From Desulfobacteraceae bacterium (lineage in GTDB: Bacteria; Desulfobacterota; Desulfobacteria; Desulfobacterales; JAABRJ01): DNA of 42,892 bases. The notes under the pieces were generated by a model, which saw only the letters and a program-made list of their open reading frames with translations, made no database searches and was not told the origin of the DNA. The translations under genes were made by a program, and so were the position numbers. The stretch's first letter is position 1; the number at the start of each line of letters is the position of its first letter. Positions 8,001 through 23,167 of the stretch are shown here, one piece after another. The stretch is taken from the NCBI GenBank assembly GCA_022340425.1, contig JAJDNY010000062.1, forward strand, positions 1 to 42,892. The letters run 5' to 3'.

Positions 8001-9877
8001 CGCTGGTGGTCACGCTGATCATCTTCTTCCGCTTCGAAAACGAGATGGTGCGCCTGCAGCGGCGCGCCAGCCGCCTGCCGGCCGGCGAGATCAGCCGCTG
8101 GAAAGCCTTTGTGGCGGCTTTTTTCCTGGGGGTCAACAACCTGCGGCGGCGGCGGCTGCGGACGGTTTTGACCTGCCTGACCCTGATCATCCTGACCTTC
8201 ACCATCATGAGTTTCACCTCGGTCAAGACCAACCGCCAGCACGCCCGCATGCTCTACCAGGACCGCGCCCCCTACCCGGCCATCCTGATGAAGAACGTCA
8301 ACTGGCAGGACCTGCCGCCCGAGGCCCTGGGCATCATCACCAACGAGTTTCACGACAGCGGCCTGGTGGCGCCGCGGGTCTGGCTGGAAGACGCCGACCG
8401 GACGCGGTCCACGCGCATCCCGCTGCGCTTTGGCGACCGGCGCTACGAGGCCCAGGGGATGATCGGGCTGGCCAGCAACGAGCCCGCGGTGACGGGGCTG
8501 GACCAGGTGCTGGTGGGCGGGCGCTGGTTCCGCGAGGATGAGGAAAAGGCCGTCCTGATCTCCGAGCGCATGGCCCGGGAGCTGGGCATCGGAACCGATC
8601 CACCGGCCGGCACCCAGGTGCTGCTCTGGGGGCTGCCCTTCGAGATTGCCGGCGTTTTCTCCGGCGAACGCCTCCAGGGGCGCCCCGACCTGGACGGCGA
8701 GATCCTGACGCCGGTCACCTTTCCCAGCGACATCGCCGTGGAGTTGACCGAGGTGGAGATGGACGCCCTGGAGTCCGGCGACGAGGTCCTCGAGCTGCAG
8801 GGCGCGTACCAGCACATCCCTGCCGATCTGACGGTAATCGTGCCGGCGGACACCCTCCTCGCCCTGGGCGGCCGGCTGAAGGCCGCCGCCCTGCGGCCGG
8901 ACGCGTCCGAGGATTTGCAGGCCCTCTCCGCGCAGCTGGCCGACCGCTTCGGGCTGACGCTTTTCAGCGGGGAGCCGGACGGCACCTTCATCTACCACGC
9001 CAGCGAGACGATCCGCTACAGCGGTGTGCCCAACATCCTGATCCCGCTGGTGATCTCGGTCTTCATCGTGCTCAACACGATGATCGGCAGCGTCTACGAG
9101 CGCAAGCGCGAAATCGGGATCTACACCTCAGTGGGGCTGGCGCCCTCCCACGTGGGGTTTCTGTTCGTCGCCGAGGCCATGGCCTTCGCCGTGCTGAGCG
9201 TCGTGCTGGGCTATCTGCTGGCCCAGAGCTCCGCCAAGCTCTTTGCCGGAACGACCCTGTGGGCCGGCATCACGGTCAACTACTCCTCCCTGGCGGGGGT
9301 GGCCGCGATGCTGCTGGTGATCCTGGTGGTGCTGGTGTCGGTCATCTACCCGGCGCGAGTGGCCGCCGAGATCGCCATCCCGGACGTCAACCGCTCCTGG
9401 CGCCTGCCCGACGCCCAGAGCAGCACCATCGAAATCACCCTGCCCTTCCTGATGAAATATCACGAACACCTCAGCATCGGCGGCTTCGTGATCGACCACT
9501 TCCGCGGCCACCAGGACGTCTCCCACGGCCTGTTCTCCAGCGGCGAGATCGACTTCGGCTTCGAGGACCAGCCGTCAGCCCCGGACGGGGCGACCTGCCT
9601 CTTCCTGCGGGCCAAGGTCTGGTTGGCGCCGTTTGACTTCGGCATCATGCAGACGGTGACGGTGACCTTCTGCCCGTCGCAGGACAAACCGGACCTCTAC
9701 GAAATCCGGCTGCGGCTGGTGCGCCAGACCGGCGAGGCCAACGTCTGGGGCCGGGTGAACCGTGTGTTCGTCAACGACCTGCGCAAACAACTGCTGGTCT
9801 GGCGGTCCCTGCCGGCCGAGACCCAGGAGTTTTACCGCGGGCGGCTGGAGACGGCCGGGCCCGCCCCGACTGTCTGA
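5060..9877 (+). CDS. Giant fusion: degenerate M28-peptidase-like ectodomain plus FtsX-type permease
   Basis: This is a 1605-residue protein. Residues about 15-37 form a signal or anchor segment. About 40-330 resemble an M28 aminopeptidase with a PA-like insert (GAIVLMDL, GAKALIYVD). The metal sites look degraded: the usual HxD is FYD (263-265), the usual GADDN is GSDEA (276-280), and the usual EE position reads DGH (308-310). Residues about 330-470 are rich in heptad-like charged helices, and a large soluble part follows. Three membrane segments lie at about 909-990. A full FtsX module follows: first segment after NLRRRRLRT (1027), a periplasmic domain, then VPNILIPLVISV (from 1323) with YERKREIGIYTSVG and a YPARVAAEIAI ending. 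A tail of about 120 residues closes the protein. I infer a permease with a ligand-binding pseudo-enzyme sensor, powered by the 4218-4955 ATPase. A GCAGGTGA site precedes the ATG. Confidence 0.8.
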   Translation: MAKPAEPSRQIRFPLRWGCALALLAILAAAGPPAAAVEPGDFAANLKALSAWDDRSSGTPGHRAAAEAIRGRFTALGFEDVGVHRFALPLRRHTQSRIALPAQGRRTPLNPINGNAISPGTIAPEGLDGPLVYVGPGDLPNFNGTPTAGAIVLMDLTSGRNWLHAANLGAKALIYVDRGDSPRTLFEEKHELSPIRFPRFWLPLEVAHSLLGDFEGTVGSVLAENVRLTSDLRWEPAVGENIYCLVPGTDPDLKEQLLLVEAFYDSTPLVFGRAPGSDEACGIASLLTLAAELRDHPPARSILLVATDGHATELAGMRELVWSISARTRELRETRSELQRVVKTARQMADLLGQAAVSGFDGQETAGGDLREALAEEIKTEVDRISRELIQLRLDGSDNASRGRINTLAQERQVLRGLLWRSGFAGLNAAERAAAKMLLPEAIRRQEMLLADARHQLELLESANRLRGIVRAHDLAAAVSLHLSSHGDGLGAFNRGWLYPLKPSVNRVAPYSTLNEVLNAGAAAMASAGELPYAFRDTLRPSRVRPWQSHFIDQPHLGGEVSALAGYLGFTLATVNDARTRWGTPGDRPQAVDTVQAARQCALVCGLVQALARAPRLDSGIAPSEGFATVSGHAKRLRHGELFPDQAAPGAVLLAFQGPARHHAIVDARGRFQLKGVAEKRHVLDKVIIEGYRFDPESGETLWAIDKKQTGKEAYRLKMQRRNMETDLVMFSCRQTTIFDLLEPRSFRYLTKIQVLDGRREALPLRYWYSRIDTRSSVIASIFLEPGTRMKLTLSDTVLRNKMLLLNATPDHPEGTGFPVDDYPSIPQTAFHVARDMWTLLTPRIAALETHGIHDERIRQLREEGVSALRQAEADLDGRRFDRAAAAAARSWALASRVYNHVQKTQKDVLFGVLFYIALFVPFAFCLERLLFSYANIHKRIVAFVAILAVLIAVIFQVHPAFQLAYSPLVVVLAFFIMGLSLVVTLIIFFRFENEMVRLQRRASRLPAGEISRWKAFVAAFFLGVNNLRRRRLRTVLTCLTLIILTFTIMSFTSVKTNRQHARMLYQDRAPYPAILMKNVNWQDLPPEALGIITNEFHDSGLVAPRVWLEDADRTRSTRIPLRFGDRRYEAQGMIGLASNEPAVTGLDQVLVGGRWFREDEEKAVLISERMARELGIGTDPPAGTQVLLWGLPFEIAGVFSGERLQGRPDLDGEILTPVTFPSDIAVELTEVEMDALESGDEVLELQGAYQHIPADLTVIVPADTLLALGGRLKAAALRPDASEDLQALSAQLADRFGLTLFSGEPDGTFIYHASETIRYSGVPNILIPLVISVFIVLNTMIGSVYERKREIGIYTSVGLAPSHVGFLFVAEAMAFAVLSVVLGYLLAQSSAKLFAGTTLWAGITVNYSSLAGVAAMLLVILVVLVSVIYPARVAAEIAIPDVNRSWRLPDAQSSTIEITLPFLMKYHEHLSIGGFVIDHFRGHQDVSHGLFSSGEIDFGFEDQPSAPDGATCLFLRAKVWLAPFDFGIMQTVTVTFCPSQDKPDLYEIRLRLVRQTGEANVWGRVNRVFVNDLRKQLLVWRSLPAETQEFYRGRLETAGPAPTV

Positions 9878-9919: not shown

Positions 9920-9961
9920 ATGGGCCTCTTTTCAAGCGCAAGCAGCAGCACCGGCACATGA
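9920..9961 (+). CDS. Possible 13-codon leader peptide
   Basis: The best ribosome-binding site in this gap, AAAGGAGG at 9901-9908, serves an ATG at 9920, not the downstream membrane gene. The 13-residue frame (MGLFSSASSSTGT) ends in a TGA at 9959-9961 that overlaps the ATG at 9958-9960 of the next gene. That layout allows translational coupling. No good ribosome site lies just before 9958. The CCTTTAAAGG palindrome around the site could pair in RNA. It could also be chance. Confidence 0.35.
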   Translation: MGLFSSASSSTGT

Positions 9962-11988
9962 GCACGCCGCCCGCACCCGCCACCCCGCCCCCCGGGGAAC
10001 CGGAGCAGTCGGCGGCGATCGCCATCCGCCCGCGTGCCGTTCTGATCGGCCTGCTGCTGGCGACGGTGATCTGCGCCCTGACCCCCTTCAACAACGTCTA
10101 CCGCCAGGCCACGCCGCTGGGGGGCGGTCATTTCCCGCTGGCGCCGTTTTTCATCCTCTTCTGGCTGACGCTGCTGGTGGCCGCCGCCGGCCGGCTGGCG
10201 GGCCGCCGGCCGTGGCTGAACGGTCGCGAGCTGCTGGTGGTCTGGATCCTGATGGTGCTCGTCTCCGGCATCGCCTACACGGGGCTGGCGCGCACCTTTT
10301 TCATCAACCTGACCGCCCCGTACCACTTTGCCAACGTCGAAAACCGCTGGGAAACGGTGCTGCAGCCGCTGCTGCCCCAGGCCCTCTTCCCCCAGCAGGC
10401 CGAGGCGGTGGCCACCCTCTACAACGGGCTGATCGGCGGGCGCCAGATGGGCTGGCTGACGGTCGTGCGCCAGATCCCCTGGCAGGCCTGGATCGTGCCG
10501 CTGGCCAGCTGGGGCGGCTTCATCCTCTTGTGCTACCTGGTGATGCTCTGCCTGGTGAACATTCTCAGCCGTCAGGCCCTGGCCAACGAGCGCATGAACT
10601 TCCCGCTGCTGCGGGTGCCGCAGTTGATGGAGGACGCTCTTGACGCGGGGCGCCTGGGCGACTTTTTGACCGACCGCTTCCTGCTCTGCGGGATGCTCCT
10701 GCCGGTGGCGCTGCACCTGTTAAACGGCCTGCATTTCTACCTGCCGGCGGTGCCCCAGCTGCCGACCCTGATCCTGGTGGGCCCCTATTTCCCCAAAACC
10801 GGCCTGTTTTCAGGGTTTTACAAGCTGAAAATCTACATCTACCCCGCCTTCATCGGCTTCGCCTTCCTGACCTCGCGCCAGATCTCCTTTTCCTTCTGGC
10901 TCTTTTTCATCCTGGGCGGCCTGCTCTCCGGCCTGCTGGGTGTCCTGGGCTACAACATCCCGGCGGCGGCTTTAGGGGTGACCTTCGGGCCGACCCTTTC
11001 CCACCCCGAGGAGATGCAGATGCTGGGCGCCTACGGGGTCTTTTTTCTCTTCCTAATGTGGCTGGCGCGTTTTCACCTGGCCGACACCCTGCGCGAGGCC
11101 CTGTGGCTCAAAAAGGCGGCCCCGGCCGAATCGGAATGGTTCTCCACCCGTCTGGCCTTCTGGGGGGTGGTGCTCGGCGGGGGCGGCCTGGTGGCCTGGT
11201 GCCGCTACTTCGGCGTTCCGCTGACGGCCTCGCTGCTCTTCATCGGGGCCTCGTTCATGGTGCTGCTGGTGGCCAGCCGGATCATCTGCCAGGGGGGGAT
11301 CGCCTACTTCACCCTCACCACAGCCCCCATCGACGGCCTGCTGACCTTCTTCGGCCCGGGGTTCTTCAGCCACATGGGCCTCTTGGTCGCGGCCGTGGTG
11401 CAGAAGGTCATGTTCGTGGACCTGCGCGAGTCGCTGATGCCCTCACTCCTGCACGCCAGCAAGATCAGCGCACCGCTAAAAAACCGGCGCCTGGTGGCCG
11501 GCGGCATCGTGGTCACGCTGCTGGCCGGGATCGTCGTCTCGCTGGTAGCCATGCTGGCGCTGTGCTACAAATTCGGGGTACGCGAACTGCAGTTCGACTG
11601 GGCAACCCAAACCACCCTGACGGTCTACGACAACGTTTTCGCCCTGATCGAAAGCCCCCTGGAAAGCGGCCACTGGGTGGTTCTCTTCGGCCTGCTGGGG
11701 GCGGCGTTGATGCTGGTCCTGGTGATCTGCTACCACCGCTTCTACTGGTGGCCGATCCACCCGCTGGGCTACCTCGCCGCCTATAGCTCGGCCATGCGCA
11801 TCCTGTGGTTCAGCTTTTTCGTGGGCTGGCTGTGCAACGCGCTGTGCATGCGCTACGGCGGGGTGGTCCTGTTCAAGCGCCTGCGGCTGTTCTTCGTGGG
11901 CCTGATCCTGGGGGATTTTTTGATGGGGGGCATCTGGGCCGTGGTGGGGCTTTTCGCCGGCGCCAGCTACCTGGTGCTGCCCGACTGA
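9958..11988 (+). CDS. Large polytopic membrane protein, OPT-like (DUF6785/DUF6784-like)
   Basis: This 676-residue protein has about a dozen or more hydrophobic segments spread over its length, after a proline-rich cytoplasmic start of about 25 residues. Recognisable stretches are LTPFNNVYRQATPLGGGHFPL after segment 1, LARTFFINLTAPYHFANVENRW in a loop, and RIICQGGIAYFTLTTAPIDGLL in the second half. The layout resembles oligopeptide-transporter-superfamily proteins and the DUF6785/DUF6784 families as I remember them; I could not check the assignment. The next gene encodes a second protein of the same size class, so the two may form a pair. No ATPase domain is present. The start has no close ribosome site and may depend on the 13-codon frame upstream. 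The substrate is unknown. Confidence 0.65.
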   Translation: MSTPPAPATPPPGEPEQSAAIAIRPRAVLIGLLLATVICALTPFNNVYRQATPLGGGHFPLAPFFILFWLTLLVAAAGRLAGRRPWLNGRELLVVWILMVLVSGIAYTGLARTFFINLTAPYHFANVENRWETVLQPLLPQALFPQQAEAVATLYNGLIGGRQMGWLTVVRQIPWQAWIVPLASWGGFILLCYLVMLCLVNILSRQALANERMNFPLLRVPQLMEDALDAGRLGDFLTDRFLLCGMLLPVALHLLNGLHFYLPAVPQLPTLILVGPYFPKTGLFSGFYKLKIYIYPAFIGFAFLTSRQISFSFWLFFILGGLLSGLLGVLGYNIPAAALGVTFGPTLSHPEEMQMLGAYGVFFLFLMWLARFHLADTLREALWLKKAAPAESEWFSTRLAFWGVVLGGGGLVAWCRYFGVPLTASLLFIGASFMVLLVASRIICQGGIAYFTLTTAPIDGLLTFFGPGFFSHMGLLVAAVVQKVMFVDLRESLMPSLLHASKISAPLKNRRLVAGGIVVTLLAGIVVSLVAMLALCYKFGVRELQFDWATQTTLTVYDNVFALIESPLESGHWVVLFGLLGAALMLVLVICYHRFYWWPIHPLGYLAAYSSAMRILWFSFFVGWLCNALCMRYGGVVLFKRLRLFFVGLILGDFLMGGIWAVVGLFAGASYLVLPD

Positions 11989-12047
11989 AGGCGGCCGGCC
12001 GTCCGACGGCCGTCTCAAACCGCAACCGGCATTGGGAATCCGTGGGC

Positions 12048-14009
12048 ATGTATATCGACAAAGAACTCGCCGAATACCGCGACCTGCTCAAAACGCCCAC
12101 CCATTTCGAGGAGGGCTTCGACTGGAAGACCGTGGTGGGGGCGGTTTTCATCGGATTTCTGATGATGCCGGGCAGCATGTACCTGCAGCTGGTGATCGGC
12201 ACCGGCATCGGCCCGGCGGCCCGCTGGGTGACCATCATTCTGTTTGCCGAGATCGCCAAACGCTCCTACACCGAACTGAAGCAGCAGGAGATTTTCCTGC
12301 TCTACTACATGGCCGGAGCCGCCCTTTCCTCGCCCTTCCAGGGCCTGCTGTGGAGCCAGTACCTGGTCCAGTCGGATGCGGCCCGCATGCTGGGGGTGAC
12401 CGAGTTCATTCCCTCCTGGGTGGCGCCGGGGCCCGATTCGGCTTCCCTGGTGGAGCGCACCTTCTTCCACCGCGACTGGCTGATCCCGATCCTGCTGCTG
12501 GTGGGCTCCCAGGTGATCCAGCGCATCGACCACTTCGGCCTGGGCTACGCCCTTTTCCGGATCACCTCGGACGTCGAAAAGTTGCCCTTTCCCATGGCGC
12601 CCGTGGGCGCCCTGGGCACCATGGCCCTGGCCGAGTCCACCGAGGACAAACAGAAAAGCTGGAAATGGCGGGTGTTTTCCATTGGCGGGGTGATCGGCCT
12701 GGCCTTCGGCGGGATCTATGTGCTGCTGCCCACCGTCTCGGGGCTGATCTTCACCGAGCCCATCCGGCTGATCCCGATCCCCTGGATCGAGCTCACCCGC
12801 CACACCGAGGGCGTGCTGCCGGCGGTGGCCACCGGCCTGCAGCTGGACCTCGGGCTGATCTTCATCGGCATGGTGCTGCCCTTCTGGGCGGTCATCGGCG
12901 GTCTGGTGGGGCTGGTGATCACCGTGGTGGCCAACCCGATCCTCTACCGCCACGGCATTCTCAACCGCTGGCACCCGGGCATGGAAACCGTGGACACGGT
13001 CTTTGCCAACAACTTCGACTTTTACATGAGCTTCGGCATCGGCCTGGGGCTGGCCATCGGCTGCGTGGGGGTCTGGCACGTGGCGCGCTCCTTCGGCAAA
13101 AGCGGCCCCGGCCGCCAGGGCAGTTTCAAGGCGCTTTTCCGTCCGCCGCCGGGGCGCGGCGATTTCAATTTTTGGATCTCCATCGCCATCTATGTCTTTT
13201 CGACCCTGGCCTACGTGCTGCTGTGCCGCTGGCTGGTGCCCAATTTCCCGTGGGTTTTTTTCCTGGCCTACGGCTTCGTCTACACGCCGGTGATCTCCTA
13301 CATCACCGCCCGCATGGAGGGCATCGCCGGCCAGTTCGTCAACCTGCCGCTGGTGCGCGAGGCGAGCTTCATCGCCGGTGCCAAGTTCTTCGGCTACCGC
13401 GGCATCGAGATCTGGTACGCCCCGATACCCATCCACAACTACGGCGAGGCCACCGTCCACTTCCGCGAGATCGAGCTCACTGGCACCAGCATCCGGGGCA
13501 TCATCAAGGCCGAGCTGGTGGTCTTCCCGGTAGTCATGGTGGCCAGCCTGCTGTTCTCGCAGTTCATCTGGCGTCTGGCGCCGATCCCCTCCAGCAACTA
13601 CCCCTACGCCCAGGAGCTGTGGCACCTGCAGGCGCTCAACACCCTGCTGATGCAGACCTCCACCCTGGAGGGCAATTCGCTCTTTTTCCAGGCCCTCAGG
13701 GCCAGTTACGTGCTCTCGGGGCTGGGCTTCGGCCTGGTGGTCTACGCCGTCCTGTCGGTCCTGGGGCTGCCGGTGCTGCTGATCTACGGCGTGGTCCGGG
13801 GCCTCGGCCAGAGCACCCCCCACGGCATGATCCTGGAGGTGGCCGGCGCTTTCCTGGGGCGCTTCTTTTTTCTGAAGCGCTACGGCGCCATGTGGCGCCA
13901 GTACGCGCCGGTGCTGCTGGCCGGCTTCTCCTGCGGTATGGGCCTGACCGGCATGTTCGCCATGGGCTTTGCGCTGATTCTCAAATCGCTGGGGCGCCTG
14001 GCCTACTGA
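12048..14009 (+). CDS. Second large OPT-like polytopic membrane protein
   Basis: This 653-residue protein starts with a soluble segment (MYIDKELAEYRDLLKTPTHF) and then has a dozen or so membrane segments. Features like those of OPT-superfamily transporters are the VGAVFIGFLMMPGSMYLQLVIG first segment, a soluble GLGYALFRITSDVEKLPFPMA region, and a late AGFSCGMGLTGMFAMGFALI segment. The ATG at 12048 is preceded only by a weak GGGAA; an in-frame GTG two codons earlier is possible. It lies 59 bases after its neighbour and 38 bases before an ABC exporter gene on the same strand. A hetero-oligomeric transporter with the 9958-11988 product is an attractive guess, but the substrate is unknown. Confidence 0.65.
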   Translation: MYIDKELAEYRDLLKTPTHFEEGFDWKTVVGAVFIGFLMMPGSMYLQLVIGTGIGPAARWVTIILFAEIAKRSYTELKQQEIFLLYYMAGAALSSPFQGLLWSQYLVQSDAARMLGVTEFIPSWVAPGPDSASLVERTFFHRDWLIPILLLVGSQVIQRIDHFGLGYALFRITSDVEKLPFPMAPVGALGTMALAESTEDKQKSWKWRVFSIGGVIGLAFGGIYVLLPTVSGLIFTEPIRLIPIPWIELTRHTEGVLPAVATGLQLDLGLIFIGMVLPFWAVIGGLVGLVITVVANPILYRHGILNRWHPGMETVDTVFANNFDFYMSFGIGLGLAIGCVGVWHVARSFGKSGPGRQGSFKALFRPPPGRGDFNFWISIAIYVFSTLAYVLLCRWLVPNFPWVFFLAYGFVYTPVISYITARMEGIAGQFVNLPLVREASFIAGAKFFGYRGIEIWYAPIPIHNYGEATVHFREIELTGTSIRGIIKAELVVFPVVMVASLLFSQFIWRLAPIPSSNYPYAQELWHLQALNTLLMQTSTLEGNSLFFQALRASYVLSGLGFGLVVYAVLSVLGLPVLLIYGVVRGLGQSTPHGMILEVAGAFLGRFFFLKRYGAMWRQYAPVLLAGFSCGMGLTGMFAMGFALILKSLGRLAY

Positions 14010-14047: not shown

Positions 14048-16627
14048 ATGATCACCCAAAGATCGCTCTTCTACTGGATCCGGCAGCGCCACCGCCTGCT
14101 GCAACTGCTGATCCTGGCGCTGATTCTGGTCAGCATCGGCCTGCGGCTGCTGCCTCTGGAGCTCCAGAAGCGGATCATCAACAGCGCCATCGAGCTCAAG
14201 CAAGTCGATCTCCTGCTGCTCTACTGCGGCCTTTTCCTGACGGCGGTGCTGCTGGCCTCGCTCTTCAAGTACGCCATCAACGTCCTGCAGAAGTACGTGG
14301 GGCAGAAAATCCTGCTGGAAATGCGGGAGACGCTCTACACCCACATGCTGCAGCTGCCCCTGCAGTTCTTTCGCCGGACCCCCCAGGGTACGGTCATCAG
14401 CCTCCTGAGCGCGGAACTCAACGCCGTCGGCCACTTCATCGGCGGCGCCCTGGCCGTTCCGGTCACCAGCCTGCTGATGCTGCTGAGCTTCGCGGCCTAC
14501 ATGATCTACCTGGACCCCCTGCTGGCGCTGATCAGCCTGGCGATCTACCCCCTGGAGATCGTTCTGATCCCGATCCTGCAACGGCGCTACAATCGCCTCA
14601 ACGCCCGCCGGGTGGACGCCGTGCGCGAGATGAGCAACGTCGTCGGCGAGGCCGTCGGGGGCATCCTCGAAATCCAGGGCAATGCCAGCTTCGCCCTCGA
14701 AAAGGCCAAGTTCAGCGACATCGCGCGGCGGCTCTTCGACCTGGTAAACCGCTTATTTCTATACAAATTCGGCACCAAGACACTCAACAACCTCTTCCAG
14801 AACCTGGGGCCCTTTTTTCTCTTCCTGCTGGGCGGCTACCTGGTGATCCAGGGCCGCTTCACCCTCGGGGCGCTGGTGGCCTTTCTCTCGGCCTACGAGA
14901 AGGTCTACGAGCCGTGGAAGGAGCTGATCGAATACTATCAGGACCTCCAGGATGCGCGCGTGCGCTACGAGCGGGTGATGGGCTACTTCGATGAGGCCCC
15001 CGAGTTCGCCCTCTTTCCGGAGGGCCGGCCGGCCCACCGCCTGAGCGGCAGCATCGCGGTCAGCGACCTCAGCCTGACGGTCCAGGAACAGATCCAGCTC
15101 CTGGACGGGGTCGGCCTGGATCTCGCCGCCGGCCAGCAGATGGCCCTGGTGGGATTTTCCGGCAGCGGCAAAAGCACCCTGGCCATGCTGCTGGGGCAGC
15201 TCTACAGCTACCGCCGGGGCCACATCCGGCTGGACGGGCATGAACTGCGGGAGCTGACCAAGCTGGACGTCAGCCGCAACATCGGGTTCGTGGCCCAGCA
15301 CCCCTTCATCTTCAGCGGCACGGTGCGCGACAACTTGCTCTACGGCTGCCGCGCGCTGGCCGCCGCGGCCACGGCCAAAGGACCGCCCCCGGCGCTGCCG
15401 GACACCCGCCGGCTGCTGGAGATGACCGCCGCCGTGGGGTTTGCCGAGGACATCGTGCGCTTCGGCTTAAACGCCGTCCTGGACCGCGAGCGCTGCCAGC
15501 CCCTGCGGGCGGACCTGCTGCGGATGCGCAACCGGCTGCACCGCCAGCTGTCGGAGAAACTCGGTCAAGCGGTGGAGTTCTACAACGTCAACCGGTTTCT
15601 CGAGCATTTGCGGATCTACGACAATCTGTTTTTCGGCGACGTCCACGACCCCGCCTGGGCGCTTTCCAACCTGCCGCGGAATCCGGCCTTTACCGCTTTT
15701 CTGGAAGCCAACGACCTCGACAGCCCCCTGCTGGAGCTGGGCGCCAAGCTGGCGGCGGAAACCGTCGCCCTGCTGGGAAAGATCGGCGACGATGCCTTTT
15801 TCTTCGCTGCCAGCCCGATGGCCCCGGAGGAGTTCGAAACCTACGCCCGGATCGTGGGGCGGGCGGCCAAAACCAGCCCGAGCGGGCTGCCAGCGGCCGA
15901 CCGGGCCCAGCTGCAGCTCCTGGCGCTGCGCTTCATCCCCGCCCGGCACAAGTTGGCCGCGATCCCCGGGTCCCTGGCGGCCGCGATCGTGGCCGCCCGC
16001 CAGCGGTTCATCCAGAATGTCGGCCACCTTCAGCTGCGGCGCTGCCAGCTGGCCACCGAGCACTTCATGCGCGGCGAGGACCCCGGGCCGGCCGAGGAGA
16101 CCGGCGGCAACCGCGACTTTTCGATCTACTGTCCCACCGAGTACCTCTACTCGCGCAGCCTGCTGGACAACCTCGTCTTCGGCACCCTCAAAGCCGAGCA
16201 GGACACCGCCCAGGCCGAGCTGCGCGAACGGGTGACCAAGGCGCTGGAGGAAAACGGGCTGCTGGACACCGTGATGGAAATCGGCCTGGATTTCGCCGTG
16301 GGCAGCAAGGGCGACCGCCTCTCCGGCGGCCAGCGCCAGAAAATCGCCATCGCCCGCGCGCTGCTCAAGGAAACCCCGATTCTCATCCTGGATGAGGCCA
16401 CCGCCAGCCTGGACAACACCTCCCAGGCCAGGATCCAGCAGTATATCGAGACCCGTCTCAAGGGCCGTCAAACGGTGGTGGCGGTGATTCATCGCCTGGA
16501 CACGGCCCGGGCCTACGACCGGATCCTGGTGCTGCGGGCCGGGCGGGTGATGGAGGCCGGTACCTACGACAACCTGATGGAGCGACAGGGGAGCTTCTAC
16601 GACCTTGTCAGGGGAGCGACGACCTGA
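14048..16627 (+). CDS. ABC exporter with enlarged nucleotide-binding domain, paralog 1
   Basis: This 859-residue protein fuses a six-segment exporter membrane domain (about 15-310) to an ATPase domain. Walker A GFSGSGKST is at 369-377, the Q-loop in GFVAQHPFIF has Q at 417, the signature LSGGQRQ starts at 758, Walker B is ILILDEATASLD, and the switch histidine is in AVIHRLD. Normally about 110 residues separate Walker A from the signature; here about 390 do. The excess contains two more copies of the post-Q-loop motif: DNLLYG (428-433), DNLFFG (525-530) and DNLVFG (707-712). The third copy keeps the usual 46-residue distance to the signature. Catalytic residues look intact. The next gene, a cNMP-domain protein, starts two bases after the stop codon. 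The cargo is unknown; lipid- or peptide-exporting type I exporters are the closest frame of reference. Confidence 0.88.
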   Translation: MITQRSLFYWIRQRHRLLQLLILALILVSIGLRLLPLELQKRIINSAIELKQVDLLLLYCGLFLTAVLLASLFKYAINVLQKYVGQKILLEMRETLYTHMLQLPLQFFRRTPQGTVISLLSAELNAVGHFIGGALAVPVTSLLMLLSFAAYMIYLDPLLALISLAIYPLEIVLIPILQRRYNRLNARRVDAVREMSNVVGEAVGGILEIQGNASFALEKAKFSDIARRLFDLVNRLFLYKFGTKTLNNLFQNLGPFFLFLLGGYLVIQGRFTLGALVAFLSAYEKVYEPWKELIEYYQDLQDARVRYERVMGYFDEAPEFALFPEGRPAHRLSGSIAVSDLSLTVQEQIQLLDGVGLDLAAGQQMALVGFSGSGKSTLAMLLGQLYSYRRGHIRLDGHELRELTKLDVSRNIGFVAQHPFIFSGTVRDNLLYGCRALAAAATAKGPPPALPDTRRLLEMTAAVGFAEDIVRFGLNAVLDRERCQPLRADLLRMRNRLHRQLSEKLGQAVEFYNVNRFLEHLRIYDNLFFGDVHDPAWALSNLPRNPAFTAFLEANDLDSPLLELGAKLAAETVALLGKIGDDAFFFAASPMAPEEFETYARIVGRAAKTSPSGLPAADRAQLQLLALRFIPARHKLAAIPGSLAAAIVAARQRFIQNVGHLQLRRCQLATEHFMRGEDPGPAEETGGNRDFSIYCPTEYLYSRSLLDNLVFGTLKAEQDTAQAELRERVTKALEENGLLDTVMEIGLDFAVGSKGDRLSGGQRQKIAIARALLKETPILILDEATASLDNTSQARIQQYIETRLKGRQTVVAVIHRLDTARAYDRILVLRAGRVMEAGTYDNLMERQGSFYDLVRGATT

Positions 16628-16628
16628 A

Positions 16629-17153
16629 ATGACCGCCGAGGCACGTCAAAACCGCAGCGAACTGGCCCAGAACATGGACTACCTGAGACAGCTGGGCCCT
16701 TTTGAGCGCACCCCCTTTGAAATCCTGCGGCTCTATGCTTACATTGCTCGTAGACGGCGTTTCCGTCAGGGGGATTTTATCTTCCGCCAGAACCAGCAGG
16801 CCGACCGGGCCCACCTCATCCTGAGCGGCGAGGTGACGTTGTCGGTGGAGAAGTCGGGACGGACGCTCCCGCTGCAGGTCCTTGGGCCGATGGAATTTTT
16901 CGGCTACATGGCGCTGTTGGCACGCTACGACTGGCCGCTGAGCGCCCGGGCCACGGCCGCCGGCGAAACCCTGAGCGTGGACCGTGAGAGTTTTCGCAAG
17001 ATTCTGATCCGCTTTCCGGATCAGTGCATCGAGGTGGTGGACAGCCTGGTGCGCCTACGCATGCAGCGCATGCGCGAGCACATGGACACCCTGATGAAAA
17101 ACATCAAAGACCCGGGCGGCGGCGCCGAGCTGGCGCGTGAAATCGGCGTATAA
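16629..17153 (+). CDS. Stand-alone cyclic-nucleotide-binding-domain protein, partner of exporter 1
   Basis: This 174-residue protein contains one cNMP-binding fold (about residues 20-140): FRQGDFIFRQNQQADRAHLI for the first beta strands, LSGEVTLSV, and a binding-cassette-like FFGYMALL...SARAT near residues 90-110. There is no DNA-binding domain, so it is not a CRP-type regulator. A C-terminal helix (RLRMQRMREHMDTLM) could mediate contacts. The ATG at 16629 has GGGGAG about 12 bases upstream and follows the exporter stop codon by one base, so tight co-translation is likely. The paralogous exporter at 20609-23125 is also followed by such a gene. I infer that it gates or regulates the exporter in response to a nucleotide or simply through its fold. 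An earlier in-frame TTG at 16605 is a less likely start. Confidence 0.82.
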   Translation: MTAEARQNRSELAQNMDYLRQLGPFERTPFEILRLYAYIARRRRFRQGDFIFRQNQQADRAHLILSGEVTLSVEKSGRTLPLQVLGPMEFFGYMALLARYDWPLSARATAAGETLSVDRESFRKILIRFPDQCIEVVDSLVRLRMQRMREHMDTLMKNIKDPGGGAELAREIGV

Positions 17154-17204: not shown

Positions 17205-17813
17205 ATGCTCAGATGGATGGTTTTCGCGATGGTAGCCGGCCTGCTGGTGGGTCGGGGCTGGTGTGAGGCCAAGGCCCCGCTCGAAGTGGGCGGGTTTGTC
17301 CTGGGCGCGCCGGTCCAGGCGGTGGAGGATCGCGTGCGCATGGCAAGCGCGCTGCCGGTGCGCCACATGGAGTTCCTGCAGGAGGTGGAAATCATCGATT
17401 TGCCGCAGTTTAAAAGCGGCTACATCGCCTTCGGGACCTGCGACCAGCCGGGGCAGATCGTACGCATCAAGCTGAAGTATGCCGAGTCCTCGCGCAAATT
17501 CTACGACGCGCTGCTGAAGCGCTTCAAACAGCGCTTCGGCAACCCCAGCGAGTGGCGCGGCGACCCGTTTCACGTGGTGATCGCTTGGAAATGGCAATTC
17601 ACCGAGCCCGACGGCACCTGCATCAGCCTGATTCTCCAGCACAACACCCGCGACGAGGACGAGAAAATGGGCAACGCGGTCAAACTGACGGCCAGCCACC
17701 TGATCGAGGCCGAACGCCGCTGCTTCGAAAAGCGGCAGCCAAAGTCGGCGGCCCCGGGGGAGCCGCCGGCTGCCCGCGGCCCGGTGGACTGGGATTTGCT
17801 AGTTCCGCGATGA
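17205..17813 (+). CDS. Secreted protein of unknown function
   Basis: This 202-residue protein begins with a hydrophobic signal-like segment (MLRWMVFAMVAGLLVGRGWCEA), so it is probably exported. I do not recognise a family. The mature part has a G-F-x-LG-x-P-V-x-x-V-E-D pattern, often seen in proteins comparing calculated and stored values but not diagnostic here. A KLKYAESSRKFYDALLKRFKQRFG helix follows, then a beta-rich IAWKWQF...ISLILQHN part and a charged, low-complexity end. AGAGGAAAC precedes the ATG. It lies 51 bases after the cNMP-domain gene and 25 bases before an unknown gene, so it is probably in the same operon. It may be a periplasmic accessory protein of the transport genes. Confidence 0.65.
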   Translation: MLRWMVFAMVAGLLVGRGWCEAKAPLEVGGFVLGAPVQAVEDRVRMASALPVRHMEFLQEVEIIDLPQFKSGYIAFGTCDQPGQIVRIKLKYAESSRKFYDALLKRFKQRFGNPSEWRGDPFHVVIAWKWQFTEPDGTCISLILQHNTRDEDEKMGNAVKLTASHLIEAERRCFEKRQPKSAAPGEPPAARGPVDWDLLVPR

Positions 17814-17838
17814 GCCCCACAGCCCGCGTGATGCCGGC

Positions 17839-18741
17839 ATGACCCCTGTGGACTCCACGCCCGCAGACGACTGGCGTGAGACCGCCTGGAACGGCGTACG
17901 CTTGCGGGTCCCGGCCAGGTGGGAGCCCCGCGAGATCGGCCGCCGCTATCTGCTGCTGGCCTCGCCGGACGGGCCGGCGATGGAGCTGCGATGGGGCCCG
18001 GCCGCCGGCAGGCACGCCGACCCCGCCGACTATCTGCGCCGCCTGCAGCCCCGCAAAGGCCCCCGCAGGCTCATCCGCCCCATTCCACTGCCGGCCGCCT
18101 GGCAAAAGGCGCTGACGGGGTTCGCCTGCCAGGGGTTTTCCTGGTCCGCCGGCGGACAGGCCGCCAGCGGTGCGGTGCTCTGCTGCCCGGTCTGCCGTCA
18201 GGCCACCCTGGTCCAGTTTTTCCACCCCCCCGGGGCCGGCGCCGGACCGACCGCCGCCGGGGTCCTCTCCGCCTTCCGGGATCACGGTCCGGCCCCCACC
18301 GTGGTCTACGCCCTCTTCGACATCCGGGCCGAAGTCCCGGCGATTTTCCAGCTGGCCGGCCAGCGCTTCGAAGCGGGCTATTTCGAGCTGGTCTTCAAAG
18401 GCCCGCGCCAGCGGCTGGTGCTGCACCGCTGGGGGCCGGCCGGGGTGCTGCTGCAACAAACAGCCCTGGCGACCCTGGGCCGGCGCCTGCTGCCCGGGAG
18501 CGACGGCCGGCCGGAAGACCTGGCGATCGGCCCCCATCAGGGTCTGGAATGGTCCCAGGACCCGCCGCAGCGGGGCTGGCAGCGCTGGTGGGGCAGACTC
18601 ACCCCCGGCGAGCGCTACCGGCGCTACCGGATCTGGCATCTGCCGCAGCGCAACCGTCTCCTGGGGGTCAGTCTGGAAGGCCGCCTGGCGCCCCCCTATC
18701 CATGGCTGGACGCCCTCTGCCAAGCCTATGAAAGTTTTTAA
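17839..18741 (+). CDS. Unknown 300-residue protein next to pqqD-like gene
   Basis: I do not recognise this 300-residue protein. It has no signal peptide and no membrane segment. The N-terminal part (WNGVRLRVPARWEPREIGRRYLLLASPDGPAMELRW) has a beta-rich look, repeated in character near residues 195-215 and at the C-terminus (RYRIWHLPQRNRLLGVSLEG). Two cysteine pairs occur near residue 115 (CCPVC). It overlaps the following PqqD-like gene by 14 bases, so the two are likely translated together and may act together. Codon use matches the surrounding GC-rich genes. The arrangement suggests a dedicated partner of the PqqD-like protein. Confidence 0.6.
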   Translation: MTPVDSTPADDWRETAWNGVRLRVPARWEPREIGRRYLLLASPDGPAMELRWGPAAGRHADPADYLRRLQPRKGPRRLIRPIPLPAAWQKALTGFACQGFSWSAGGQAASGAVLCCPVCRQATLVQFFHPPGAGAGPTAAGVLSAFRDHGPAPTVVYALFDIRAEVPAIFQLAGQRFEAGYFELVFKGPRQRLVLHRWGPAGVLLQQTALATLGRRLLPGSDGRPEDLAIGPHQGLEWSQDPPQRGWQRWWGRLTPGERYRRYRIWHLPQRNRLLGVSLEGRLAPPYPWLDALCQAYESF

Positions 18742-19150
18742 ACGCCGCAAAACCGCCGAGACCGACGCCGCCCGCGCGGCGTCGCTGGCCTGCCGGCCCA
18801 CCAAAAACCCGGAGGTCCAGGAAAGCCCGCTGGATTCAGGCGAGCTGCTGCTGGTCTACCCGGTCAGGGTCCGCCCGTGGTTCGGGTCCCTGGCACGCCG
18901 CCTGGGCGCCCCGGCCGCCGAGGTTCAGACCCGCCGGCTGCAGCTGGACACGCTGGGGACGGCGGCCTGGCGCCTTCTGGACGGTCGGCGGACGGTGGCC
19001 GGGGTGGTGCGGGCCTTTGCGCACGAGTTTCAGCTGCATCCGCGCGAAGCGGAGGTGTCCGTCACGCGCTTCCTGAAGGAATTGGGCAAGCGGGGGTTGA
19101 TCGGACTCAAGGCCCCGCCGGGGGAGCTCAAGGGCCTCGGCAAGAAATAA
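18728..19150 (+). CDS. PqqD-like peptide-recognition protein
   Basis: This 140-residue protein has a PqqD-type domain in its second half: LDTLGTAAWRLLDGRRTV, then VVRAFAHEF, LHPREAEVSVTRFLKELGKRGLIGL. That is the winged-helix fold known as the RiPP recognition element. In PQQ synthesis and other peptide-maturation systems it binds a leader peptide and presents it to a radical SAM enzyme. The first 45 residues are basic and lack a family match. I placed the start at the ATG at 18728, inside the end of the previous gene. No radical SAM gene, PqqA-like precursor or maturase is visible nearby, so this may be a member recruited for another protein-binding job in the exporter locus. Confidence 0.75.
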   Translation: MKVFKRRKTAETDAARAASLACRPTKNPEVQESPLDSGELLLVYPVRVRPWFGSLARRLGAPAAEVQTRRLQLDTLGTAAWRLLDGRRTVAGVVRAFAHEFQLHPREAEVSVTRFLKELGKRGLIGLKAPPGELKGLGKK

Positions 19151-19287: not shown

Positions 19288-19620
19288 CTAAAACTGCTGC
19301 AGGGCGTCCTCCAGGGAGGTAAAGATCGGCAGGAAGGTGTCAAAACCCGCGATTTCGAAAACTTCGCGGACGTAGTCTTTCATGGCGCAGAGGACAAAGC
19401 TGCCTTCGGCGCGCTTGATGTCCTTGGTGGCTTTCAGAATGACCCGCAGCCCCGCGCTGGAAATATAATCCAGCGCGCCGAAGTCCACCACCAGACACCG
19501 GGTCCCCTGGCGGATCACATCGGAAAGCCGCTTTTCGAAGTCCGGCGAAGTATTGGAATCCAGCCGCCCGGAGAGGCTGAAGATCAAGATATCGTCTTGT
19601 TGTCGCTCGGTTATTTCCAT
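19288..19620 (-). CDS. STAS-domain anti-sigma-factor antagonist-like protein (RsbV/SpoIIAA type)
   Basis: This 110-residue protein is a single STAS domain. The motif LDYISSAGLRVIL carries the serine (residue 55) that partner kinases phosphorylate in RsbV and SpoIIAA. SGRLDSNTSPDFEKRL at the start and VREVFEIAGFDTFLPIF at the end are also typical. The family works as a phosphorylation-controlled switch that sequesters an RsbW-type kinase. The kinase-like gene lies 37 bases upstream in the same operon, after the cNMP-domain gene and exporter. AAGGT precedes the ATG. No sigma factor or PP2C phosphatase is seen here, so the pair may control something other than transcription, perhaps the exporters. 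Confidence 0.9.
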   Translation of the reverse strand: MEITERQQDDILIFSLSGRLDSNTSPDFEKRLSDVIRQGTRCLVVDFGALDYISSAGLRVILKATKDIKRAEGSFVLCAMKDYVREVFEIAGFDTFLPIFTSLEDALQQF

Positions 19621-19657: not shown

Positions 19658-20080
19658 TCAGCGCCGGATCTGTTTTTTGAGGGTCAGGACGTTGGTGTCC
19701 CGCCGCCGTTCGTAGACGATCCGGTCCATGAATTTGCGGATGAAGAATATCCCCAGCCCCCCGATCGAGCGCTTCTCCAGCGGGCAGTGGATCTCCGGCG
19801 GCTGGACCTGGGACAGGTTGAAGTGGCGCCCGTCGTCCTTGACCCGGATGGTCAGGGTCTCGCCCTCCAGCCGAAGGCGCACGGTGATCCAGTGCTCTTT
19901 GTCATCGCAGAAGCCGTAGGAAATGATGTTGCTCAGGATTTCCTCCAGGGTGAAGTTGATTTCAAATACGCATCTTGGCGGCAGCCCGTGGCGCTCGCCG
20001 AAGTCCTGCAGATGCCGGCTCAGACGCCTGAGTTCGGAGAGGCGGTTTTGCAGTTTGAGTTCTAGTGTGTCTGCACCCAT
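19658..20080 (-). CDS. RsbW/SpoIIAB-like ATP-binding serine kinase
   Basis: This 140-residue protein is a GHKL-type HATPase_c_2 domain. The N-box is EEILSNIISYG (46-56), the G1 box VKDDGRHF (80-87) and the G2 box SIGGLGIFFIRKFMD (105-119). Members phosphorylate the serine of STAS antagonists and often bind a sigma factor. It sits between the cNMP-domain gene (26-base gap) and the STAS gene (37-base gap) on the minus strand. The ribosome site is weak (GGATGATTCC). The natural partner is the adjacent STAS protein. Some members pair with GAF/PP2C phosphatases, and none is seen in the window. Confidence 0.88.
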   Translation of the reverse strand: MGADTLELKLQNRLSELRRLSRHLQDFGERHGLPPRCVFEINFTLEEILSNIISYGFCDDKEHWITVRLRLEGETLTIRVKDDGRHFNLSQVQPPEIHCPLEKRSIGGLGIFFIRKFMDRIVYERRRDTNVLTLKKQIRR

Positions 20081-20106: not shown

Positions 20107-20634
20107 TCAGATCAGACTGACCCCCGATTTCTTTTGGCAGCTGTCGGCGCCCAGGAATGCATCCGACATGAAGCGCTCCTCCCAGGCGCTGATGCTCTCC
20201 ACCAGCCCCTTGAGGACCTTGGGCATCATGTCGGGAAACTGCTCCAGCACGCGCGAGAATTTTTCGCGCGTCAGCACCAGGCAGACCACATCGGTCACCG
20301 CCACCAGGGAAAACAGACGCCGCATCCCGCCCAGTAGCGTGATCCCGCCCAAAAAAGCGCCGGCCTCGAAAACGCGCATCTCGTGCTCGCGACCGTTTGT
20401 CTCGCGCAACAGGCGTGCCTGACCGGAGACCAGGAAAAAGGCCTGACCGTCGTCCTCCCCCTGGGTGAAGAGGCGCTCCCCCGCCTTAAAGCTCTCCCGC
20501 GCGCAAAGGTACGCCAGCAGCTTGAGGGCCTCGGGCGACAGCCCGGCAAAAAACCGCACCTCGCGCAGGATGTCCAGATTCTGCTGGAACTCGCAGGCCG
20601 CGTCCGTCCTATTTTCTTCCGGTGACCAGCTCAT
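20107..20634 (-). CDS. Stand-alone cyclic-nucleotide-binding-domain protein, partner of exporter 2
   Basis: This 175-residue protein has one cNMP-binding fold and no DNA-binding domain. Its order matches the other copy at 16629-17153: an opening helix (NLDILREVRFFAGLSPEALKLLAYL against NMDYLRQLGPF...ILRLYAYI), FKAGERLFTQGEDDGQAFFLVSG, and a C-terminal helix after FSRVLEQFPDM. The cassette region (FLGGITLLGGMRRLFSLVA) lacks an obvious phosphate-contacting arginine, so nucleotide binding may be lost or altered. The start codon lies inside the exporter gene and overlaps it by 26 bases, with AAAGGAAC upstream, so translation is coupled. I infer an exporter-linked regulator. Confidence 0.82.
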   Translation of the reverse strand: MSWSPEENRTDAACEFQQNLDILREVRFFAGLSPEALKLLAYLCARESFKAGERLFTQGEDDGQAFFLVSGQARLLRETNGREHEMRVFEAGAFLGGITLLGGMRRLFSLVAVTDVVCLVLTREKFSRVLEQFPDMMPKVLKGLVESISAWEERFMSDAFLGADSCQKKSGVSLI

Positions 20635-23125
20635 AAAAGGTTCCTTTCCGATTCATCAGCTCTTCGTAAGGTCCCAACTCGAGAATCTTGCCGGCCTTCA
20701 TCACCGCGATCTTGTCGAAATTTTTGACGATGTCCAGGCGGTGCAACACGGCGATCAGGGTGGTACGACCCTTGAAGCGGGCCTCCAGCAGGCGCTGGAT
20801 GCGGGCCTGGGACTTGTTGTCCAGGGCCGAGGTGGCCTCGTCCATGATCAGGATTTCCGGGTTCTTCAGAAACGCCCGGGCGATCGCCACTTTCTGGCGC
20901 TGGCCGCCGGAGAGCCGGTCACCCTTGCTGCCGACGTCGAACGTCATCCCGATCTCGATGATCCTCTCCAGCAGGTCCTCCTCGATGAGCACCTGGACGA
21001 TGCTCTGGTTTATTTTTTCCTCGGCCTGGGAGCCGCTGCTTTTGGGTTTGCCGAAGAGAATATTGTTGAGAATGGTCTCGGAATGAATGTAAACGGCCGT
21101 TTGGTAAAAGGCAAGCGCATCGGGAAAATCCCGTTCAATCCCCGCCTTGAAAAGCGCCCGGCCGGCCATGACCCGCTTTTCCAGCAAACCGGAGAGGGCC
21201 ACGGTCTTGTGCCGCGCGGGGGTGAAGCGCAGCCCCAGGATCAGAAGCTTTTCGCGCTCGCCAGCGGGTAGGTCCGCCAACGGCTGTTTTTCCAGCCGCT
21301 GCACGATCTGCTTGTAATCCTCCAGCTCCTCGGGTTGGATCGGGCTTTCGCGGAAGAAGATGTCCTGGGGCGGGAGATTGCCCAGGATATCCACGGTCTG
21401 CCGGGCCAGCTCCGCCCCGAGCTTCAGCAGCGGCCCGGTGAGCTCGGCGCGCTCCAGAAATTCCAGGAAATAGGGGTTGTGGTAGAGGTTGGGGGCTTCG
21501 AAGGCGGGGTCGTTGGCCGTACCGAAAATCAGGTTCTCGGCGATGCTGGCGTGGTGGAGAAAGTTCTGCACATTGAAAAACTCCACGCTGTCGGCCAGGG
21601 CCTCGCCAAAATCCCGCCGGAAATTGGCCCGCACCCGCACCAGCACCGCCATCAGGTCGCCGTCGCGCTGGGGCGAGACCCGCGCATTGAGGCCAAATCG
21701 CAGCACGTCCACGAAAATGCCGGTCTGCTGAAGCACCTCGATGATTTGGTCGAGGGTCGGCATCGGCGGGGTGCTTTCCGCCCCGGCCGCCTGTTTGCGG
21801 GCCTCGCAGCCATAGAGCAGGTTGCTCTGGATGGTGCCGCCGAAGATGAAGGGGCTCTGGGAGACGAAGCCGACGTTGTTGACGATGTCGCTTTTGGTCA
21901 TCTCCGCCACCTCGCGTCCGTCCATCAGCACGTGGCCGCCAGTGTAGCGGTAGAGCTGACCGACGCACAGCGCCAGGGTGCTCTTGCCGCTGCCGGAGAA
22001 GCCCACCAGGGCCAAGTGCTCGCCCGGGGCCAGGGAGAGGTTGATGTCCTGCAGCAAGAGGATGCCGCCCTCGGTGGCGAAGGACAGGTGCTGAACCTGA
22101 AGGTCGCCGCGCAGGTGATAGGGCGCACGGTCCACGGGCGCCAGCTGGTACTCGGGGGCGGCATCGAAGTACTCCATGGTGCGGCGATAGCGCACGATTG
22201 CGTCTTGATAGGACTGATAGAACTCGATCAGCTCCTTCCAGGGGTCGTAAAGCTTTTCCTGGGCCGAGAGAAAGGCCACCAGCGCACCCAGTTCCAGCCG
22301 GCCGTGGATGGTGAGGTAGCCGCCGATGATGAACACCAGGAAAGGGCTCAGGTTGGTGAAAAAATTGTTGGCGGTTTTGATTCCGAAGCGCAGCAAATTC
22401 CAGCGCACCCGTATCTTGCGCAGGTCTTCGACCTCCTGGTCGTGGCGCAGGTTTTCGATCTCGTAGGAGCCGTTGCCCTGGACCTCGTGGATCCCTGAAA
22501 CCGACTCGACGATGATATCCGAGTAGTGGCGGGTGATGTCCACGCGCTTTTTGTTGGCTTGGTTGGCCTTTTGCTGCAGCAGCGGGATGATGAGCAGCAC
22601 CACGGGGTAAATCGAGAGCGAGACGGCCGCCAGGATCGGGTTGAGCCACGCCAGGTAGACGGCGAAGACCAGCAGAGTCAGGAGGCTGGTGATGGGCACG
22701 GCCAGCGCCTCGCCGGCGAAATCCCCGGCTGCGACGAGTTCGTTGACCAAAGAGGCGACCACCAACCCCGGCTGGGTTTTGCGGAAGAAGGAAAGCGGCA
22801 GGGTCAGGAGATGGTGGTAGAGGGCCTTGCGCATCTCGGCCAGGGCGCGCTGGCCGATGAGGGTCTGCAGAATATTGATCAGGTACTTGAGGCCGCTGGC
22901 GGCCAGGACCGACACGAGGTAGATGCCGCAGTAAAGCATCAGCAGGTCCACGTCGCGCAGCTTGATGGCCTCGTTGACCACCCGCTTCTGCATCTCCAGG
23001 GGAAGCACCCGGGCAAAGACCGTGATGATGATGACCGCCAGCAGAAGCGCCTGCAGATGCAGGTTGTAGGCGAAGACCCACGAAAAAAGCGACCGTTTGG
23101 TCACGGAGACATCCGGAGAACGCAT
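20609..23125 (-). CDS. ABC exporter with enlarged nucleotide-binding domain, paralog 2
   Basis: This 838-residue protein is a paralog of the exporter at 14048-16627, on the opposite strand. The membrane domain comes first, then Walker A GFSGSGKST (375-383), the Q-loop in GFVSQSPFIF, the signature LSGGQRQ at 738, Walker B ILIMDEATSALD and the switch histidine in AVLHRLD. Walker A to signature is about 363 residues. The extra region has SNLLYG (ending 439), ENLIFG (ending 535) and NNILFG (ending 692); the last is 46 residues before the signature, exactly as in paralog 1. Both share LRFxPARHK in the insert. I chose the ATG at 23125 because AAGGAG lies eight bases upstream; the ATG ten codons earlier has none. 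The two are diverged but collinear, so this is an old duplication. Confidence 0.88.
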   Translation of the reverse strand: MRSPDVSVTKRSLFSWVFAYNLHLQALLLAVIIITVFARVLPLEMQKRVVNEAIKLRDVDLLMLYCGIYLVSVLAASGLKYLINILQTLIGQRALAEMRKALYHHLLTLPLSFFRKTQPGLVVASLVNELVAAGDFAGEALAVPITSLLTLLVFAVYLAWLNPILAAVSLSIYPVVLLIIPLLQQKANQANKKRVDITRHYSDIIVESVSGIHEVQGNGSYEIENLRHDQEVEDLRKIRVRWNLLRFGIKTANNFFTNLSPFLVFIIGGYLTIHGRLELGALVAFLSAQEKLYDPWKELIEFYQSYQDAIVRYRRTMEYFDAAPEYQLAPVDRAPYHLRGDLQVQHLSFATEGGILLLQDINLSLAPGEHLALVGFSGSGKSTLALCVGQLYRYTGGHVLMDGREVAEMTKSDIVNNVGFVSQSPFIFGGTIQSNLLYGCEARKQAAGAESTPPMPTLDQIIEVLQQTGIFVDVLRFGLNARVSPQRDGDLMAVLVRVRANFRRDFGEALADSVEFFNVQNFLHHASIAENLIFGTANDPAFEAPNLYHNPYFLEFLERAELTGPLLKLGAELARQTVDILGNLPPQDIFFRESPIQPEELEDYKQIVQRLEKQPLADLPAGEREKLLILGLRFTPARHKTVALSGLLEKRVMAGRALFKAGIERDFPDALAFYQTAVYIHSETILNNILFGKPKSSGSQAEEKINQSIVQVLIEEDLLERIIEIGMTFDVGSKGDRLSGGQRQKVAIARAFLKNPEILIMDEATSALDNKSQARIQRLLEARFKGRTTLIAVLHRLDIVKNFDKIAVMKAGKILELGPYEELMNRKGTFYELVTGRK

Positions 23126-23167
23126 CGGGTATGCTCCTTGGTTTTGGGCGTGCATCCCACCCCACCC

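Follow-up and report, generated by a model that had tools for sequence, protein, structure and literature searches.

The ATPase domain of an ABC exporter from a Desulfobacteraceae bacterium, encoded at 14048..16627 of a 42,892-nucleotide contig (JAJDNY010000062.1; the whole contig is referred to as the window), holds three versions of a motif that follows the Q-loop. This raises two questions: whether the additional units are copies of the Q-loop/helical subdomain, and what such copies might do. This subdomain serves as the transmission that links ATP hydrolysis to the membrane domain, and its architecture is, to our knowledge, considered invariable among exporters. Ordinary exporters contain a single one, with approximately 110 residues between Walker A and the signature, an arrangement that is usual and not superfamily-defining. 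The exporter, designated member A, has the following features.

14048..16627, + strand, ABC exporter half-transporter (member A, 859 aa) matching PF00664 and, in two stretches, PF00005; its NBD matches that of TAP1
14114..14890, + strand, transmembrane domain (TMD), residues 23-281 (PF00664, E 7.5e-28)
15152..15178, + strand, Walker A GFSGSGKST, residues 369-377, near-invariant in 89 members
16319..16333, + strand, ABC signature LSGGQ, residues 758-762, from the translation and family alignment
16379..16402, + strand, Walker B and catalytic Glu, ILILDEAT, residues 778-785, with D782 and E783 invariant
16490-16492, + strand, H-loop His815, invariant

Member A is a complete ABC-exporter half-transporter of the type IV fold. 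As in type IV (ABCB/MsbA-like) exporters, the PF00664 TMD and the NBD occur in one chain with all catalytic motifs, the Pfam ABC_tran match being split into two stretches. The catalytic set of Walker A, Q-loop Gln, LSGGQ, Walker B Glu and H-loop His is intact. Moreover, Q417, LSGGQ, D782-E783 and H815 are invariant across the 89 family members, and Walker A is nearly so. Based on the known ABC mechanism, ATP hydrolysis is expected because these motifs are invariant. The AlphaFold model of member A had a mean pLDDT of 77, with the catalytic parts of the NBD mostly at 85-95. Superposition of the modelled NBD on that of TAP1 (2ixe_A), a standard exporter ATPase, gave a Z of 28.7 at 2.1 Å with 246/251 residues aligned. 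In this model, the standard exporter NBD fold is kept despite the insert.

The exporter is thus a member of the ABC superfamily in all features tested except the usual single-copy helical subdomain, for which three units were counted. Compared with type IV exporters, the helical subdomain of the family is approximately 280 residues longer and has two extra Q-loop/helical units. Member A also scored far below the NCBIfam equivalogue cut-offs tested: 333.8 bits for the MsbA lipid A exporter (TIGR02203; curated cut-off, 602) and 233.9 bits for NHLM_micro_ABC2 (TIGR03797; curated cut-off, 709.4). The span from Walker A (369) to the signature (758) is 390-394 residues in member A, in agreement with the roughly 390 given in a preliminary description of this DNA, and has a median of 368 in the family. 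The enlarged region is laid out as follows.

15281..15481, + strand, repeat unit 1, residues 412-478: the true Q-loop with invariant Q417 and DNLLYG at 428-433 (alignment, profiles, predicted structure)
15485..15562, + strand, long helix before unit 2, residues 480-505, with invariant R494; aligns with the helix before unit 3 in an 84-column match
15572..15784, + strand, repeat unit 2, residues 509-579: VEFF-type strand, no Gln, DNLFFG at 525-530 (alignment, profiles, shuffles)
15785..15967, + strand, helical linker between units 2 and 3, residues 580-640, with invariant P590 and H634; no NBD match
15968..16018, + strand, helix before unit 3, residues 641-657, with invariant R651 (alignment, predicted structure)
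16118..16318, + strand, repeat unit 3, residues 691-757: DNLVFG at 707-712, continuing into the signature (alignment, profiles, shuffles)

The repeat unit comprises a strand, the Q-loop, the NLxFG helix and two further helices, with the two extra copies located between the Q-loop and the signature. The positions that the preliminary description had read from the translation were all correct: those of the three motifs, of the relatives of the Q-loop strand (FYNVNRFLEH, 511-520, and YCPTEYLYSR, 694-703), and of the third motif, 46 residues before LSGGQ. Asn429, Asn526 and Asn708 are conserved in 100% of the 89-member alignment. The Q-loop Gln, Q417 (100%), is confined to copy 1 and was lost from copies 2 and 3. 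The conserved Gly at the unit end follows the invariant Asn by 44, 39 and 38 residues in copies 1, 2 and 3, respectively. The linker of about 60 residues (580-640) matched no part of the NBD in profile comparisons.

The relationship of the units was evaluated using profile segments cut from the 89 members, corresponding to residues 405-480 (c1), 481-600 (c2) and 640-757 (c3). HH profile comparison yielded E values of 7e-6 for c1-c2, 3e-6 for c1-c3 and 2e-11, over 84 columns, for c2-c3. Every comparison with control segments from elsewhere in the protein had E >0.01, and with 100 column shuffles for each pair the observed scores were never reached. Ungapped windows of 22 columns starting at 412, 509 and 691 were mutual best matches in the protein with scores of 14-32; the next-best windows in the whole protein scored 0.6 or less. 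An N[LI]x[FYML]G-type motif was present at all three positions in 88/89 members. As the preliminary description had supposed, this motif is normally single: among 26 ordinary exporters from the same order or related genomes, a strict pattern found it once in 20 and not at all in 6. Finally, each copy alone matched ordinary exporters in their Q-loop/NIxYG region (c1, 1.6e-11; c2, 3.8e-6; c3, 1.6e-5), while the linker, TMD and pre-helix controls gave E >0.02 and did not land on the Q-loop region.

The predicted secondary structure repeats in the same order. Units 1, 2 and 3 have predicted strands at 412-415, 509-511 and ~692-693, motif helices at 426-430, 523-528 and 705-710, next helices at 453-462, 546-554 and 719-735, and last helices at 466-474, 558-579 and 739-747. 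Relative to the invariant Asn, these elements are in register, the strand lying at about -17 and the motif helix starting at -3; at the unit ends, one helix stops 11 residues before the conserved Gly and another spans it. The insert was modelled at pLDDT 60-90, and the model was poor over residues 658-694. When copy 2 and the linker were folded alone, the best PDB results were an E of 4.2 with Foldseek and a Z of 2.2 with VIA-align, neither counting as a match, and no Pfam family matched. The matches listed in this search included no ABC chain, the unit being too small for the search to exclude anything. The equivalence of the three units rests on sequence and predicted secondary structure.

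Together, the profiles and the register make it very probable that internal duplication lies behind the two extra units. The preliminary description had proposed duplication of the Q-loop and the start of the helical subdomain; the duplication held up, but its extent needed revision, as the unit runs from the strand through the last helix of that subdomain. An insert that is an unrelated helical domain, with NLxFG motifs scattered by chance or convergence, would agree with the absence of PDB and Pfam matches for isolated unit 2 and linker. This alternative is nevertheless very improbable given the copy-copy and copy-exporter profile matches, the shuffle controls and the predicted register, and scattered matches of this kind were not seen.

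The copies c2 and c3 resemble each other more than either resembles c1. They also share an extra preceding long helix with an invariant Arg (R494/R651), which suggests two rounds of duplication: c1 would have given rise to c1 and an ancestor of c2 and c3, and the latter would then have been duplicated. Other derivations were considered. Alignment of 336-475 to 606-748, with unit 3 as a whole decayed N-terminal half of an NBD, retained only the Q-loop part at confident positions. For unit 2, a decayed signature helix was suggested at low alignment confidence only. Pfam matches of the insert to YfhO and Peptidase_M3_N occurred in few members, with E down to 7e-4, and were judged to be due to chance. 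No report of a repeated Q-loop/helical unit was found in the literature searched, which was largely open-access.

Extra structure in the ABC domain is also carried by ABCF proteins (the Arm of EttA), UvrA and Rad50/SMC. The ABCF Arm, the UvrA modules and the SMC/Rad50 coils are located between the Q-loop and the signature, and are foreign elements. The ABCF Arm is variable (PMC6723617). In contrast, the insert of the present family contains copies of the host subdomain itself, in a membrane exporter.

The window encodes a second member of the family.

20609..23155, - strand, member B, 50% identical to member A over its full length and carrying the same triplicated insert

The family was present in 18/58 relatives searched and in 28/395 genomes spread across the phylum. 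A scan of GTDB species genomes yielded 143 loci, of which the best 80 were kept. Except for one Aminicenantes contig, these 80 were from Desulfobacterota or from MAGs bearing the older label Deltaproteobacteria, and included Desulfobacterales, Desulfobulbaceae, Desulfovibrio, Solidesulfovibrio and Syntrophobacteraceae. The triplicated pump occurs across sulfate-reducing bacteria, and with 63 weaker loci outside this set its distribution may be wider. The Aminicenantes contig (L057; SOIA01000361.1) was probably mis-binned, since its member is identical in the tree to that of a Desulfobacteraceae MAG (L059). In this tree, for which the insert was removed from the protein, the family formed one clade on a long stem with a support of 100, and member A fell in a four-member A-type group. 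A single origin of the family is possible because there is one clade on a long stem.

In L036 (G036 C3), the copy-1 loop that follows the first motif contains approximately 11 tandem hexapeptides, LGNCVD or near variants, and the linker between units 2 and 3 has another low-complexity stretch. L037 (G055) carries, on the - strand at ~1100-2580, a second copy of the family gene that has decayed: frame breaks interrupt its membrane domain and parts of the insert are lost.

Conservation of the added region bears on whether it has a specific function. R494, E510, N526, P590, H634, R651, N708 and G712 are invariant or nearly so despite deep divergence, and the length of the insert is nearly constant (span of 394 in member A; family median, 368). 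Both observations argue against the expansion being a structural elaboration of little specific function, fixed in the family ancestor by constructive neutral growth. Tolerance of insertions by the loops around the units, as with the hexapeptide repeats, fits that explanation, which we consider improbable overall.

The genes encoded beside the exporter suggest what this function could be. The first of them encodes a protein with a cyclic-nucleotide-binding fold (CNBD).

16629..17153, + strand, CNBD protein, 174 aa (PF00027, E 6e-18)
17205..17813, + strand, conserved neighbour, 202 aa, with a signal-peptide-like start (neighbourhood conservation)
17839..18741, + strand, conserved neighbour, 300 aa (neighbourhood conservation)
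18938..19102, + strand, PqqD domain protein, conserved neighbour (PF05402, E 2e-9)
19288..19620, - strand, RsbV-like STAS protein with a conserved YISSAGL phosphosite context (PF01740, E 5e-25)
19658..20080, - strand, RsbW-like kinase, HATPase_c_2 (PF13581, E 6e-25)
20107..20634, - strand, CNBD protein, partner of member B; its gene overlaps the B gene at its end (PF00027, E 1e-19)
In other genomes, SpoIIE-type sensor phosphatases (dCache/HAMP or MASE10) adjoining the exporter: L054 6123-8258, L065 6255-8399, L098 6273-8420 and L074 5841-7289

A CNBD frame of ~175 residues opens at most 250 nt after the ABC stop in 72/73 loci, and a CNBD gene likewise follows members A and B as well as the three remaining A-type members. 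At 16625-16631, the junction reads TGA-A-ATG, placing the CNBD start one base past the ABC stop. Translational coupling of the ABC and CNBD genes is likely because of this junction in the A pair and the overlap in the B pair. The cAMP-type CNBD has a phosphate-binding cassette with a conserved Glu, that of FGE[LI]. The consensus of the present CNBD family is FxGglxL, with Gly replacing the cassette Glu. Classical cAMP binding is unlikely because of this replacement, and the ligand is probably not cAMP. A Pfam search of the CNBD protein detected no DNA-binding domain. PADLOC matches reflected general ATPase or CNBD similarity only.

RsbW-like HATPase and RsbV-like STAS genes occur downstream of the ABC gene in 51/67 loci; in the window, the HATPase_c_2 kinase and its STAS antagonist are in one operon. 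A SpoIIE-type phosphatase lies within the locus in 25 of the 57 loci having enough upstream sequence. The window has none adjacent, and four are present elsewhere in the genome. In the four SpoIIE phosphatases examined, the sensor part is of the Cache/HAMP or MASE10/HAMP type, and such enzymes apparently supply the RsbU component that the module otherwise lacks.

The neighbours at 17205-19150 (202 aa, 300 aa and PqqD) recur with the exporter in many genomes and are encoded on the opposite strand to the B-type gene. Immediately upstream of the exporter, two large membrane proteins are encoded next to each other (9958-11988 and 11805-14009), one matching DUF6785/DUF6784 and the second without any Pfam family match. 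Farther upstream, a 1605-residue M28 peptidase region fused to MacB/FtsX permease domains (5060-9877) lies beside an ATPase gene (4218-4955); a similar pair adjoins the family exporter in L115.

Several known systems combine related parts. NHLM transporters (NHLM_micro_ABC2) contain a CNBD. HetC, an ABC exporter of Nostoc, needs its CNBD in vivo (PMC10986499); as in the present family, a CNBD is linked to an ABC exporter, but in HetC it is fused N-terminally along with a C39 peptidase, while here a separate gene downstream encodes it and the peptidase is absent. In MlaFEDB, the STAS protein MlaB binds and controls the NBD (PMC7367683), and the present family has a STAS protein encoded beside the exporter. 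However, MlaF is a separate ATPase that works with the MlaE permease, while the family TMD is PF00664, and the universal neighbour of the family is a CNBD rather than a STAS protein.

Based on these data, we propose that the exporter hydrolyses ATP, probably as a homodimer, and that two rounds of Q-loop-to-signature duplication, the number of rounds being our estimate, expanded the helical subdomain of its NBD. Copy 1, with the Q-loop Gln, would perform ordinary coupling, and copy 3 would join the signature. The ATP site and normal coupling were presumably kept, because copy 1 retains the 100% conserved Gln and copy 3 still runs into the signature. Copies 2 and 3 should be unable to serve as Q-loops because they have lost the Gln. 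Together with the linker, they would enlarge the helical subdomain laterally, and this added body may serve the co-encoded CNBD protein as a docking site or clutch. The CNBD protein would itself be under partner switching by an RsbU-like sensor phosphatase, an RsbW-like kinase and an RsbV-like STAS protein, such that a signal would shift the position of the helical subdomain and turn transport on or off.

We assign this overall explanation, an expanded exporter with a regulatory clutch for a CNBD under partner switching, a probability of approximately 0.5. That the co-encoded signalling proteins switch the pump on and off is probable. A regulatory role of the extra copies themselves is a hypothesis that falls a little short of even odds. 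The complete version, with a coupling subdomain duplicated twice, spare copies acting as a clutch read by the CNBD under partner switching, and the exporter gated by a signal, is more tentative, and we regard it as doubtful. The repeat homology and register, the invariant catalytic residues, the standard NBD fold, the single clade on a long stem, the linkage of CNBD (72/73), HATPase/STAS (51/67) and SpoIIE (25/57) genes, and, by analogy, the precedents of STAS action on an NBD in MlaB and CNBD requirement in HetC were counted in favour of the overall explanation. Counted against it were a mirror-tree analysis, in which the distance correlation of the CNBD was no stronger with the insert than with the TMD or NBD, the absence of a structural match for copy 2 alone, and the absence of HATPase/STAS and phosphatase genes beside many members.

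The mirror-tree result bears on where the CNBD acts. The insert could face the coupling helices of the TMD: the extra copies would then extend the coupling interface to the exporter's own membrane domain, altering the stroke or dimer stability, and the CNBD would act elsewhere, for example on the TMD N-terminus. The copies derive from the part that normally touches the coupling helices and retain the NLxFG helix, which is adjacent to this interface. Nevertheless, only copy 1 kept the Q-loop Gln, and a long unique linker separates copies 2 and 3; we judge this joint reading rather unlikely.

Incomplete linkage of the kinase and STAS genes, missing beside 16/67 members, would also be compatible with a role of the partner-switching genes in operon transcription only, the insert binding a substrate or an accessory protein from outside the operon. 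Sigma factors are the classical targets of RsbW/RsbV/RsbU modules, and the HATPase/STAS pair and phosphatase could act on an unrelated sigma factor. Linkage of the CNBD gene in 72/73 loci and the lack of a DNA-binding domain in its product by Pfam speak against this possibility, which we consider unlikely.

What is new here is the genetic setting: a CNBD gene with a frequent RsbW/RsbV-like pair, and an RsbU-like phosphatase nearby. The authors of the MlaFB study raised post-translational control as a possibility for ABC transporters broadly (PMC7367683), and the constant CNBD with a frequent Rsb-type set provides a concrete, testable case of such control of an exporter. The triplicated unit with an intact catalytic core is also a natural experiment on coupling, in which contacts needed once may be distinguished from those that can be copied. 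If the proposed clutch is correct, these bacteria would possess a signal-gated ABC exporter assembled from repeated copies of the part that serves as its transmission.
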